Positions 10,652-63,157 of a DNA stretch of 64,000 nt are shown here, in pieces. The position numbers and the translations under genes are program-made. Origin of the DNA: Deltaproteobacteria bacterium (lineage in GTDB: Bacteria > Myxococcota > Myxococcia > Myxococcales > Anaeromyxobacteraceae); assembly GCA_016214955.1 (NCBI GenBank), contig JACRMN010000015.1, positions 62,001-126,000 of the forward strand. Reading direction: 5' to 3'. Numbering within the stretch: the first letter of the stretch is position 1; every line of letters starts with the position of its first letter. The notes below the pieces were generated by a model that had not been told where the DNA came from, searched no databases, and saw only the letters and a list, made by a program, of their open reading frames with translations.

Positions 10652-12703
10652 ATGACCCTCGCCACCGCACCCGACCCCGCGCCGTCCCCGCCTCCCGCCC
10701 CCGGCTCGCCGCCCGCCGCCGCGCCGGAGCCCCGCCTCGGCCTGCGGCGGCTGCGACGCGCGCTCTTCGGCGCGCCGCGCGACCTCGCCAGCCCCGCCAC
10801 CTACCGCCACGTCTCGCTGGTGGCGCTCCTCGCCTGGGTGGGGCTCGGCGCCGACGGCCTCTCCTCCTCCGCCTACGGCCCGGAGGAGGCCTTCCGCGCC
10901 ATCGGCGCCCACCACTACCTGGCGGTGGCCCTGGCGCTGGCCACCGCCGGCACGGTGCTGGTGATCTCGCTGGCCTACGCCAGCATCATCCAGCACTTCC
11001 CCTTCGGCGGCGGCGGCTACGTGGTGGCCACCCGGCTCCTGGGCCCGGCGCCGGGCGTGGTCTCGGGCGCGGCGCTGCTGGTGGACTACGTGCTCACCAT
11101 CTCGGTCTCCATCGCCGCCGGCGGCGACGCGGTGTGGAGCTTCCTGCCGCCCGGCTGGGCCGCCTGGAAGCTGCCGGCGGAGATCGCCGTCATCGCGCTC
11201 CTGGTGCTTCTCAACCTCCGCGGCGTCCGCGAGTCGGTGGCAACGCTGGCGCCGATCTTCGCCCTCTTCCTGCTCACCCACCTGGTTCTCCTCGTCGGTG
11301 CGGTGGGCAGCCACCTGGGCGACGTGCCCCGCCTCGCCGCCGAGGTGCGCAGCGAGGCCCTCGCGGCGGTGCGCAGCCAGGGGGGCGCCGCCGTCTTCGG
11401 CCTCTTCCTCTTCGCCTACTCCATGGGCGCCGGCACCTACACCGGCATCGAGGCGGTCTCCAACGGCCTGGCCATCATGCGCGAGCCCAAGGTGGCCACT
11501 GCCCGCCGGACCATGGCCTACATGGCCGTTTCGCTGGCGCTCACGGCCGGCGGCATCCTGGTGGCCTACCTGCTCTTCCGCGTGGTGCCCGCCGAGGGCA
11601 AGACCATGAACGCCGTGCTCCTCGAGGCCTTCGCCGGAAGCTGGACCGCGGGCGGGATCCCGGTGGGGCGCGGCTTCGTGATGGTGTCGCTGGCGGCCGA
11701 GGCGGCGCTGCTCTTCGTGGCCGCCCAGGCCGGCTTCCTCGACGGGCCCCGGGTGATGGCCAACATGGCCTCCGACTCCTGGCTGCCGCACCGCTTCGCC
11801 CAGCTCTCCGAGCGGCTGGTGGTGCGCGACGGCGTGCTGCTCATGGGGGCCGCCTCGCTCCTCACCCTGGTTGTCACGCGCGGTGACGTCACCCACCTGG
11901 TGACCATGTACTCCATCAACGTCTTCCTGACCTTCTCGCTCTCCCAGGCCGGGATGGTGCGCTTCTTCTGGCGCCGCCGGACCGGCGGCCGGGGCCGCGG
12001 CCTGTGGCTGCACGGGGTCGCCTTCACCCTCTGCGCCGGCATCCTCACCGGCATCGTCTACGAGAAGTTCGGCACCGGCGGCTGGATCACGCTGCTCGTC
12101 ACCTGGGTGGTGGTGGGGGTCTGCTGGCTGGTGCGGCGCCACTACCGCGACGTCCAGGCCGGGCTGCGCCGGCTCGACACGGTGCTCACGGCGGTGGCCC
12201 AGAGCACCCCGGCCCCGCCCCGCGAGCTCGTGCCGTCGGCGCCCACGGCGGTGCTGCTGGTCGGCTCCTACGCCGGCCTGGGCGTGCACTCGCTGCTCTC
12301 GCTGCACCGCACCTTCCCCGGCACCTTCAAGAACGTGATCTTCGTCTCGGTGGGCGTGGTGGACGCTGCCGCCATGCGGGGCATCGAGGAGGTGGAGCGG
12401 GTGCGGGAGCGGACCGAGGAGTCGCTGCGCCGCTACGCCGAGCTGGCGAGGCGCCTGGGCTTCGCCTCCGGGTGGCGCGCCGGGGTGGCCACCGAGGCGC
12501 TGGGCGAGGCCGAGAAGCTGTGCCTGGCCCTGGCCCGGGAGTACCCGCGAACGGTGGTGTTCGCCGGCAAGCTGGTCTTCCGGGAGGAGCGCTGGTTCCA
12601 GCGGCTCCTGCACAACGAGACCGCCTACGCGCTGCAGCGCCGGCTCCAGTTCGCCGGCCTCCACGCCATGGTGCTCCCGGTGCGGGTGCTGGAGCAGGGG
12701 TAG
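10652..12703 (+). CDS. KimA-like APC-superfamily permease
   Basis: 683 residues. An Ala/Pro-rich cytoplasmic N-terminus is followed by about twelve transmembrane helices and a soluble C-terminal domain of about 170 residues. Segments GLGADGLSSSAYGPEE, FPFGGGGYVVATR, LLVDYVLTISVSIAAG and TYTGIEAVSNGL match the KimA (YdaO) potassium-uptake branch of the APC superfamily more than amino-acid permeases. It would import K+ or a related cation, driven by H+. The orphan KdpE/KdpD-like pair nearby supports a potassium link, which is an inference. It starts with ATG 115 bp after the DsbA-like gene. Confidence 0.8.
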   Translation: MTLATAPDPAPSPPPAPGSPPAAAPEPRLGLRRLRRALFGAPRDLASPATYRHVSLVALLAWVGLGADGLSSSAYGPEEAFRAIGAHHYLAVALALATAGTVLVISLAYASIIQHFPFGGGGYVVATRLLGPAPGVVSGAALLVDYVLTISVSIAAGGDAVWSFLPPGWAAWKLPAEIAVIALLVLLNLRGVRESVATLAPIFALFLLTHLVLLVGAVGSHLGDVPRLAAEVRSEALAAVRSQGGAAVFGLFLFAYSMGAGTYTGIEAVSNGLAIMREPKVATARRTMAYMAVSLALTAGGILVAYLLFRVVPAEGKTMNAVLLEAFAGSWTAGGIPVGRGFVMVSLAAEAALLFVAAQAGFLDGPRVMANMASDSWLPHRFAQLSERLVVRDGVLLMGAASLLTLVVTRGDVTHLVTMYSINVFLTFSLSQAGMVRFFWRRRTGGRGRGLWLHGVAFTLCAGILTGIVYEKFGTGGWITLLVTWVVVGVCWLVRRHYRDVQAGLRRLDTVLTAVAQSTPAPPRELVPSAPTAVLLVGSYAGLGVHSLLSLHRTFPGTFKNVIFVSVGVVDAAAMRGIEEVERVRERTEESLRRYAELARRLGFASGWRAGVATEALGEAEKLCLALAREYPRTVVFAGKLVFREERWFQRLLHNETAYALQRRLQFAGLHAMVLPVRVLEQG

Positions 12704-15286: not shown

Positions 15287-15436
15287 GGCAGGTGCATTGG
15301 AGCACGACGGCCCCGGGGCGGTCGAGGCCGGCCGGGGGGCGTCGATTCCCTGGGCCCGGTGGCGCCCCGGGGCGGCGCGGGTCGCGGCCAGGCCGACAGG
15401 TCCCGCACCGCCACCTGGGACTGCTCCGGCGGCCCG

Positions 15437-16332: not shown

Positions 16333-16595
16333 AGCTCGAGAACGAGATCACCGTCGCCGGCCTCTCCTGCGGCCAGGTCCTGGATCGGCTCTCCGACTAC
16401 CAGGACGGCGACCTCTCCCCGGCGGAGCGCACGCAGGTGGAGGCCCACCTGCGCGGCTGCGATCGCTGCGCCCGGTTCGGCGGCGAGTTCCGGGTGGTGG
16501 TGGACGCGCTCCGCTCGCGCCTGGCGCGTACGCCCCCGGTGCCCCGCGACTTCCGCGAACGGCTGCGGCGGGCCCTGGACTCGGAGCGGCCCTAG
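16329..16595 (+). CDS. Zinc-finger (zf-HC2) anti-sigma factor, soluble
   Basis: 88 residues. The ZAS/zf-HC2 motif is visible as LSCGQVLDRLSDYQDGDLSPAE followed by HLRGCDRCARF, giving the H-x3-C-x2-C zinc site that holds an ECF sigma factor inactive. It ends after a short helix (RDFRERLRRALDS) without a transmembrane segment, so it is a cytoplasmic, possibly redox-responsive anti-sigma like RsrA/ChrR-type proteins. It overlaps the sigma gene by 4 nt. Confidence 0.9.
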   Translation: MKLENEITVAGLSCGQVLDRLSDYQDGDLSPAERTQVEAHLRGCDRCARFGGEFRVVVDALRSRLARTPPVPRDFRERLRRALDSERP

Positions 16596-17069
16596 CAGGC
16601 TGCTGAAATGGTCCTCCGTGAGGCGGTGCGGGTCCTGTCGGCCTCGCCGCCACCCGCACCGCCGCAAGTGCGACGGCGCCGCTTGTCCAGGTAGGAGGCT
16701 GCACAGCAGCGGGCAACCCTCCAGGGCCTCCGGGACCAGTTCTCGGCAGTTCCAGCTGCCAGCGTGGGGCCACCTATGGCTCCCCCCCCCGTGCGCGCTC
16801 ATCGCGCTGAGGAGGCTGACGTAGGCGGGGCCTGGCGCCGAAGCGCCAGCGGTCCGACCTCGATCTGCGCCGCCCCATCGGACCGCGGACCGGCGACGTT
16901 TGTGCCCTCACCAGGGGCAGGAACGTCGCCGGAGGGCGGTGCCGACCCCCTGCCTGCGCCACAAACGGTTCACGAGCACGGGGCGGCGCTGCCCCTTCGA
17001 CACCGACGCTGGCGTCGGCCGCCAGCGAGGCGCCAGGCCCCGCCGAAGCCGCACGTGTTGAAATGGCTC
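16596..17069. other. Non-coding interval between convergent genes, flanked by short direct repeats
   Basis: 474 bp between the anti-sigma and TorD-like genes, with no credible coding frame. TGCTGAAATGG (16601-16611) and TGTTGAAATGG (17056-17066) form a near-identical direct repeat about 455 bp apart at the two edges. The right half holds the structured element described separately. It may be a degenerated insertion, but no transposase remnant is recognisable. Confidence 0.6.
16824..17044. repeat. 220-bp multi-hairpin element bounded by perfect 16-bp inverted repeats
   Basis: Outer arms 16824-16839 and 17029-17044 are perfect 16-bp reverse complements (GGCGGGGCCTGGCGCC). Inside are CTGGCGC-CGAA-GCGCCAG (16832-16849), GCGGTCCGA/TCGGACCGC (16849-16857 and 16878-16886), an 11-bp stem CCGGCGACGTT/AACGTCGCCGG (16890-16900 and 16922-16932) enclosing TGCCC/GGGCA, and CCGACGC-TG-GCGTCGG (17003-17018). 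Such a nested set could be a structured RNA, a MITE-like or REP-composite element, or a bidirectional terminator region. Confidence 0.6.
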
Positions 17070-17717
17070 CTAGGACTCGCGGCCCGCCACCGCCGGGCAG
17101 CCGCCGCCCAGCGGGTCGCACTCCGGCCCCGGCTCGCAGGCGGGCGCGGACGGCGGCGCCTCCGGCAGGCGCGCCGCCAGGGCGCCGGCGGCGCGGGCCA
17201 GGTAGGAGGGCGCGTCCTCGGGGAGCTTCCGCGCGAGCCGGGCGCCGGCGATGGCCACGTGCTCCACCAGGAAGCGGGCCCGGGCCTCGCGCGTCACCTC
17301 GGCCGCCTCGGCCTGGCCGCCGGCGCGGGCGTAGGCCTCCTTGAGGAAGAGGAAGGCGACGAAGTCGCACTCCACCGCCAGGTGGTCGGCGGGCTCCTCG
17401 GCCCTGGGCGCGAAGCCGAAGGCGGCGTAGCGGCTCGCCAGGTCGGCGAGGATGCGGCCCGGGTCCTGGAAGCCGGCGTGGGCGGCGGCGCGCGGCGAGG
17501 CCCGGCCGCCGGCGCCGAGCAGCGCGTGATAGGCCCCCTCGCTGGCCTCGGCCGCCTCGCCGGCCGCGGTGCGGAGCTGCCGGTCGGGCGCCTCCGGGGC
17601 CAGCGCGGCCAGCTCCTCCCGCCAGCCCGGCCGCGGGCGCGAGAGCAGGAGCGCCAGCAGCCGCCACTCGGTCGCGGCCGCCAGCTCCGGCGTCAGGTCG
17701 GCGCCGGGGGCGCTCAC
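17070..17717 (-). CDS. TorD/NarJ-family molybdoenzyme assembly chaperone
   Basis: 215 residues from a GTG that overlaps the stop of the gamma-subunit gene by 4 nt. It is an all-helical TorD/DmsD-like protein: ATEWRLLALLLSRPRPGW at the start, a Tyr/Ala-rich middle (SEGAYHALLGAGG), then the conserved acidic helix DHLAVECDFVAFLFLKEAYAR near residues 110-130 and FLVEHVAIAGARLARKL. It would bind the TAT signal and apo-catalytic subunit during cofactor insertion. It ends with a Cys-rich tail (CEPGPECDPLGGGCP) not typical of the family. It is the last gene of the respiratory operon. Confidence 0.87.
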   Translation of the reverse strand: MSAPGADLTPELAAATEWRLLALLLSRPRPGWREELAALAPEAPDRQLRTAAGEAAEASEGAYHALLGAGGRASPRAAAHAGFQDPGRILADLASRYAAFGFAPRAEEPADHLAVECDFVAFLFLKEAYARAGGQAEAAEVTREARARFLVEHVAIAGARLARKLPEDAPSYLARAAGALAARLPEAPPSAPACEPGPECDPLGGGCPAVAGRES

Positions 17718-50891: not shown

Positions 50892-51432
50892 GCCGGACAC
50901 ACCGGCCTCCGCCGCTGGTCCTCGGGCGGGCGCTGCGCGCGGCCGCGCGAACGTCCTCGTGACGGGGCGCCTCGCAAACGTCGGGGCGCGGACGACGGGC
51001 TGCCGCTCGCCGTTGCCGCGCCCACGACGGCTTGCTCGACGCGGACGGGCTCGCGAGCCGCGCGGACGGCAGGCGCTCCCTTGCGCCCTGCGGATGCGGC
51101 TGCGGCCGGTGTGCCGGCTGCGCGGCAGGAAGCTCGCCGGCGGACGGGCCCCTCGTCGCCGCCCGCAGCGACCGCGCGTGCGCTTCTCGGCCCGCTGCTC
51201 CCTCGGAGCGGCCTGCATCGAGCGTCGCCACGGCCGGGACAGTGAGCAGGGCGGTGGCAGTGGCAGTGGCGAAGCGAGATGCCCGGGGCTGCGGACGGAA
51301 CCGGTCCTCGGCCATTGCCGTGAGGTCGCGGCGCGAGGACGGAGACGAGGGGTCCGGGAGCCGGCCGCGCCGAAGGGGCCGAGGCCCCGCCACTCCTGCC
51401 GAGCGGCGCGGAGGACCGAAGCCCGGCCGTCT
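50892..51432. repeat. Copy A of a 0.53-kb dispersed non-coding repeat
   Basis: This stretch matches the reverse complement of 62628-63157 over its whole length. It includes a 56-bp block (51139-51194) and a 47-bp block (51196-51242) that look identical in both copies. The blocks are separated by a 1-nt indel, and further single-base and 6-nt indels occur, so no reading frame is conserved. A hairpin GCGGGCG..CGCCCGC (one mismatch in this copy) lies in the conserved core. It fills the gap between the LRAT-like and PAP2 genes. Confidence 0.85.
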
Positions 51433-51451
51433 CGGGCCGTCGGCCCGCCGC

Positions 51452-62627: not shown

Positions 62628-63157
62628 GGCGGCCGGGCCCGGTCCTCCGCGCCCCTCGGCGGGCCGGATCTCCGGCGCGGCCGGCTCCCGGGCCCCTCGT
62701 CGCCGTCCTCGCGCCGCGACTTCGCGGCAACGGCTGGCGAGCGGCTCCGTCCGCAAAACCCGGGCATCTCGCTTCGCCACTGCCACCGCCCTGCTCGCTG
62801 TCCCGGCCGTGGCGACGCTCGATGCAGGCCGCTCCGAGGGAGCACGGGCCGAGAAGCGCACGCGCGGTCGCTGCGGGCGGCGACGAGGGGCCCGTCCGCC
62901 CGCGAAGCAGTCGCGCAGCCGGCGCGCCGGCCGGAGGCGCCCCCGCAGGGCGCAAGGGAGTACCTGCCGTCCGCGCGGCTCGGGTGCCCGTTCGCGTCGA
63001 GCAACCGTTCGTGGGCGCGGCAACGGCGAGTGGCAACCCGTCGTCCGCGCCCCGACGCTTGCGAGACGCCCCGTGCCGAGGGTGTTCGCGCGGCTCTCGT
63101 GCAGCGCCCGCCCGAGGACCTGGCGCCGGAGGCCGGCGCGTCCGGCGGAGCGGTGAG
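62628..63157. repeat. Copy B of the 0.53-kb dispersed repeat, inverted relative to copy A
   Basis: Reverse-complement counterpart of 50892-51432, lying in the 650-bp gap between the methyltransferase and pgl genes. The conserved core contains the hairpin GCGGGCG-GC-GACG with CGTC-CGCCCGC, perfect in this copy. The two copies could recombine to invert the 11.2 kb between them. No transposase or terminal inverted repeats are recognisable. Confidence 0.85.

Follow-up and report, generated by a model that had tools for sequence, protein, structure and literature searches.

The intergenic region at 16792-17070 of the analysed window (the whole 64,000-nt stretch of DNA) holds a gene-less, hairpin-rich repeat that, with a probability of roughly two in three, is a non-autonomous MITE-like mobile element of ~250-400 bp, bounded by inverted repeats, that uses the TA within (C/G)TAG as its insertion site. 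It is flanked on the left by an anti-sigma zinc-finger gene on the plus strand, part of an ECF-sigma/anti-sigma pair and ending at 16595, and on the right by a nitrate-reductase-delta-like gene on the minus strand, ending at 17070. Both of these convergent genes terminate in TAG, and the TAG of the right-hand gene (CTA on the plus strand, 17070-17072) is the putative insertion site.

The window copy contains two perfectly complementary 16-bp arms, GGCGGGGCCTGGCGCC (16824-16839) and GGCGCCAGGCCCCGCC (17029-17044), spaced by 189 nt. Among the 25 longest of the 35 inverted repeats found in the window (at least 14 bp, arms no more than 300 bp apart), they are the sole fully complementary pair of at least 16 bp. 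The plus strand between the arms contains four hairpins: hairpin 1 (16849-16886), formed by GCGGTCCGA (16849-16857) and TCGGACCGC (16878-16886) with 9 bp; hairpin 2 (16890-16932), formed by CCGGCGACGTT (16890-16900) and AACGTCGCCGG (16922-16932) with 11 bp; hairpin 3 (16934-16994), in which GGGCGGTGCCG (16934-16944) and CGGCGCTGCCC (16984-16994) make 11 pairs including G-U; and hairpin 4 (17007-17027), formed by CGCTGGCG (17007-17014) and CGCCAGCG (17020-17027) with 8 bp. Alternative pairings are also present, namely GCGCCGCCCC at 16867 with 16980 (10 bp) and CGCCAGCG at 16844 with 17007 (8 bp). Thus, the perfect arms, the internal stems, the convergent intergenic setting and the local hairpins able to compete with the outer pairing, all described in the sequence-only reading, are borne out. 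The limits of 16824-17044 given there delineate the structure correctly but not the extent of the element, as the copies remain homologous leftwards to ~16792 and rightwards to the CTA of the stop codon at 17070. Read on the minus strand from the TAG of the right-hand gene, the whole unit therefore spans 16792-17070, its left limit set by homology to the copy on contig C26 and its right limit by the CTA common to six copies. Outside the arms it comprises a left linker (16792-16823), common to the C26 copy and partly to that on contig C4, and, on the minus strand, a right linker with a terminal motif (GGCTCCTA on the plus strand; 17045-17070), which the six-copy alignment shows to be conserved up to the stop codon.

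In the 5.3-Mb genome we found four full copies with pairwise identities of 85-92%: the window copy, C4:269728-269972 (91% identical to the window copy), C19:119695-119924 (88%) and C12:156644-156873 (88%). A covariance model built from these four retrieves them alone in the genome. Two further copies are collapsed, one at 294 kb of C26 with linkers of the window/C4 type and one at 106 kb of C3 with linkers of the C12/C19 type, so that the linkers define two subtypes, window/C4(/C26) and C12/C19(/C3). With its four full and two collapsed copies, the repeat is dispersed in the way of a MITE; it has the matching size of ~250-400 bp and no transposase gene of its own, and none of its reading frames persists through all four full copies, on which ground a coding origin was rejected. 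Weak extra matches in C5 and C30 lie inside coding-like sequence and look like chance.

Read by eye, the left and right parts of the collapsed copies are joined at GGCGT in C26 and at GAGGCG in C3, and each junction string is present on both sides of the palindrome base in full copies of the same subtype. The collapsed copies look like the products of two independent deletions, each by slippage between these direct repeats of 5-6 bp. Reading them instead as pre-insertion sites is less likely, because they already hold one complete palindrome arm.

Beyond this genome, the search for related copies returned little. In DNA searches of 40 relatives, no convincing copy was found, with short weak matches only, and a plasmid collection gave zero matches. 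The single match in a phage collection (36 nt at 89%) was dismissed as chance. Exact-pattern scans of genome and viral contigs yielded either nothing or short-pattern matches on unrelated contigs, and these latter matches were set aside as lacking the support of the covariance model.

The right end is conserved in all six copies and runs exactly to the TAG stop of a gene that differs from copy to copy: in the minus direction, each copy reads gene, TAG, then GAGCC (or GAGCG, AAGYC), the genes upstream of this junction are unrelated, and orientation relative to the right-hand gene is constant. Past the right end, the copies have no sequence in common. TAG accounts for 599 of the 1199 stops called in 2.04 Mb, which gives p ~0.016 for its occurrence at six of six copies. 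This and the other surveys of repeats and stops covered 2.04 of the 5.3 Mb and used home-made gene calls. Taken alone, the stop count is modest evidence; direct evidence comes from the end motif common to the copies, which continues into the TAG of genes that are unrelated to one another. In the same sample of this genome (G000), TAG is as frequent as TGA (599 versus 571 of the 1199 called stops), which seems unusual at such high GC.

One could suppose that a bidirectional terminator of convergent genes was duplicated along with the gene ends, given that the window, C19 and C26 copies sit between convergent genes. However, the gene to the left of the C12 and C4 copies does not point towards them, the sequences beyond the right end are unrelated, a terminator-like U-tract is missing, and the structure far exceeds what termination needs; we regard this explanation as very improbable.

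The left ends are less uniform. In C19, an outer inverted repeat, CTAGGAGCCTGTCC / CTAGGAGCGCGTCC, lies at the very ends of the element, and TAGGAGCCnGTCC occurs only twice in 2.04 Mb, each time as an end of this family. C4 has CTAG on either side and a weak outer inverted repeat at its very ends. TA/CTAG flanks on both sides are seen in C19 and C4 and are absent at the window copy, whose left end reads CTGA and not CTA, and at C12, which has no clear outer left end. All full copies have the 16-bp arms, set back from the conserved right end by 25-60 nt, and the outer terminal repeat is clear only in C19. The left CTAG of C19 is not, as might be supposed, the stop of the left-hand gene, which ends 6 nt earlier.

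Under the MITE-like interpretation, a transposase supplied in trans would recognize the ends of the element and insert it at TA within the tetranucleotide (C/G)TAG, a site that in this GC-rich genome is often a TAG stop codon. Because the element end begins with G, insertion within TAG would restore the stop codon, the first G of the element rebuilding the triplet and leaving the upstream protein unchanged. Transposition itself, the duplication of TA and the involvement of an IS630/Tc1-type transposase are steps that we infer, and two copies would later have collapsed through the slippage at the palindrome base described above. In the 2.04-Mb sample, gene calling places a stop codon at 219 of 554 CTAG sites, so that a preference for CTAG would lead to gene ends. 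Such preferences have precedents: IS630 is reported to prefer the TA in 5'-CTAG-3' (Tenzen and Ohtsubo 1991, as cited in PMC2170065), and MITEPsy1 is inserted at CTAG or YTAA (PMC3189936). The TAG of the right-hand gene is probably older than the insertion, because the one close ortholog found, in the relative G010, likewise ends in Glu-Ser-TAG and carries no element. Empty-site comparisons at the PPDK and C19 loci met with neighbours that were not conserved or too diverged, and in the 2.04-Mb survey, pairs of CTAG with matching inverted ends showed no genome-wide enrichment. Allowing up to two mismatches, we found no transposase flanked by the arms in the assembly, which is 95.6% complete. 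Not every MITE retains a surviving autonomous parent.

Transposase-like genes of another kind do exist in this genome, and they suggest a different origin, in which the repeat would be a REP/BIME-type unit moved by RAYT (Y1 tyrosine) transposases. RAYT-like genes, the only transposase-like genes recognized among the long repeats examined, occur in several copies (NCBIfam NF047646, E 1e-13, below the family cut-off), located at C19:89633-90292, at the ends of contigs C4 and C29 and at C26:254.8-255.3 kb; runs of GTGCCGGACATG repeats precede them, and two contigs break inside copies. The C4 copy of the element adjoins one such gene, a single adjacency, and immediately before the left arm stands GTAG (window, C4) or GGAG (C12, C19), tetranucleotides that recall those of REP units. 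Against this, no such tetranucleotide precedes the right arm, the unit is far longer than a REP, none of the remaining copies has a RAYT gene nearby, and the RAYT genes carry their own GTGCCGGACATG repeats, which are absent from the element. The RAYT locus at C19:89.4-90.5 kb carries other repeats and not that of the element. Movement of the unit by RAYT transposases thus seems improbable.

The folding of the element, a check that the sequence-only reading had proposed for both strands, is strong on each: the window copy folds at -157.4 kcal/mol on the plus strand (z -9.3) and at -155.1 kcal/mol on the minus strand (z -6.2), and among 580 stretches of 221 nt scanned on the plus strand it has the largest excess over its own shuffles. 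The second-strongest excess, at 10781-11001, falls in coding-like sequence. Strong folding, together with the constant orientation directly after a TAG stop, would fit a structured RNA, namely a minus-strand 3' UTR element behind the stop of the right-hand gene that stabilizes, processes or terminates the transcript and has spread by copying.

To some degree, comparison of the copies is also compatible with such an RNA. Of the 16 pairs of the outer stem, 13 are invariant in the four copies, two vary on both sides between the subtypes with pairing kept, and one is broken in C4. On the minus strand, only two (C19) and six (C12) of 100 versions of the window copy, mutated at random to an equal number of substitutions, fold as well as the natural copy, which is mildly better than random. 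On the plus strand, however, 41 of 100 (C19) and 21 of 100 (C12) do as well, so the internal stems are kept there no better than chance. They are mostly invariant across the four copies, their conservation is largely one of sequence identity, and some pairs are broken: the sequence of hairpin 1 is retained in all four, with C4 lacking one of two tandem CGGACCG units, and some pairs of hairpin 2 are broken in C19 and C12. Since the C19 and C12 folds are ordinary on the plus strand and only slightly better than random on the minus strand, the comparison, which is of four sequences only, favours conservation of the ends over that of an RNA fold.

Further points that speak against a structured RNA are the loss of the whole body in two copies, the small number of full copies (just four, none found in relatives) and the Rfam search, a check that the sequence-only reading had also proposed, in which the window gave no match at the gathering score. 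That reading had offered either a structured RNA or a MITE/REP-type unit; the latter half is supported by a multi-copy repeat that has inverted ends and no kept reading frame and lies between unrelated genes, while the former is unsupported, given the missing Rfam match, the near-chance plus-strand energies and only two outer pairs changed on both sides. A functional RNA is therefore less likely than a MITE-like element, and we consider it unlikely.

The genome contains further structured repeats. A second family comprises hairpin-rich intergenic repeats of ~240-290 bp that are 82-94% alike and often close to TAG stops; its copies include 51187-51439 and 62629-62852 of the window (C27:113187-113439 and 124629-124852), C27:133816-134043 and others on other contigs. 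A third family, of ~255 bp with arms GGCGGTGCGGGTCC.../...CCACCCGCACC, is likewise often near TAG stops, with full copies at C19:271507-271761 and C30:12936-13191. Its arms-only short forms occur in the window at 15371-15412 and, on the plus strand, at 16602-16665, the latter a collapsed copy next to where the left-hand gene stops and adjacent to the element described here. A separate GC palindrome, CCGGCCGGCGCGCCGGCTGCGCGG, is dispersed in the genome and also lies at the edges of members of two repeat families (C12:156.89 kb; C3:106.34 kb, locus L027; C27:113.1, 124.9 and 133.7 kb; loci L029, L032, L033 and L035). Several GTTCCACGTGGAAC palindromes, at L034, at ~132.7-132.9 kb of C30 and also at L029, presumably recall ParB parS sites. 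It is a tentative and rather doubtful extension of the MITE-like model that several hairpin-rich families, namely the present element and those of ~260 and ~255 bp, home to (C/G)TAG, rebuild the TAG stop and repeatedly collapse to their arms by hairpin slippage.

Among known systems, the RUP (repeat unit of pneumococcus) and the TA-flanked MITEs Correia/NEMIS and ERIC resemble the element in being short, non-coding, intergenic and rich in strong stem-loops, with inverted ends and TA termini (PMC2229807). The element differs from them in its greater length (~250-400 bp), its few copies, its fixed position at TAG stops and the fact that no parental IS was found, and no sequence relation to them is known. 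MITEPsy1 of Pseudomonas syringae is also a short inverted-repeat element inserted at CTAG or YTAA, but it is 100 bp long and has other ends and a probable IS5-type parent, ISPsy2 (PMC3189936). REP/BIME units with their RAYT genes share with the element the extragenic GC-rich palindromes near gene ends, and RAYT-like genes are present in this genome; in contrast to them, the element is ~250 bp long, contains four hairpins and ends in a conserved manner at TAG, and the RAYT genes here are flanked by other repeats. We found no earlier description of this miniature-element family, which would be a new family of a known, MITE-like kind, and for which the rule of landing in stop codons is plausible.

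If the insertion model holds, it would provide a simple route by which a mobile element lands in a stop codon and leaves the gene unharmed, and it would explain why the element is positioned exactly at gene ends. It would also be a caution, from a GC-rich host genome with many structured intergenic repeats, that extreme folding scores between genes can flag mobile DNA instead of functional RNA.
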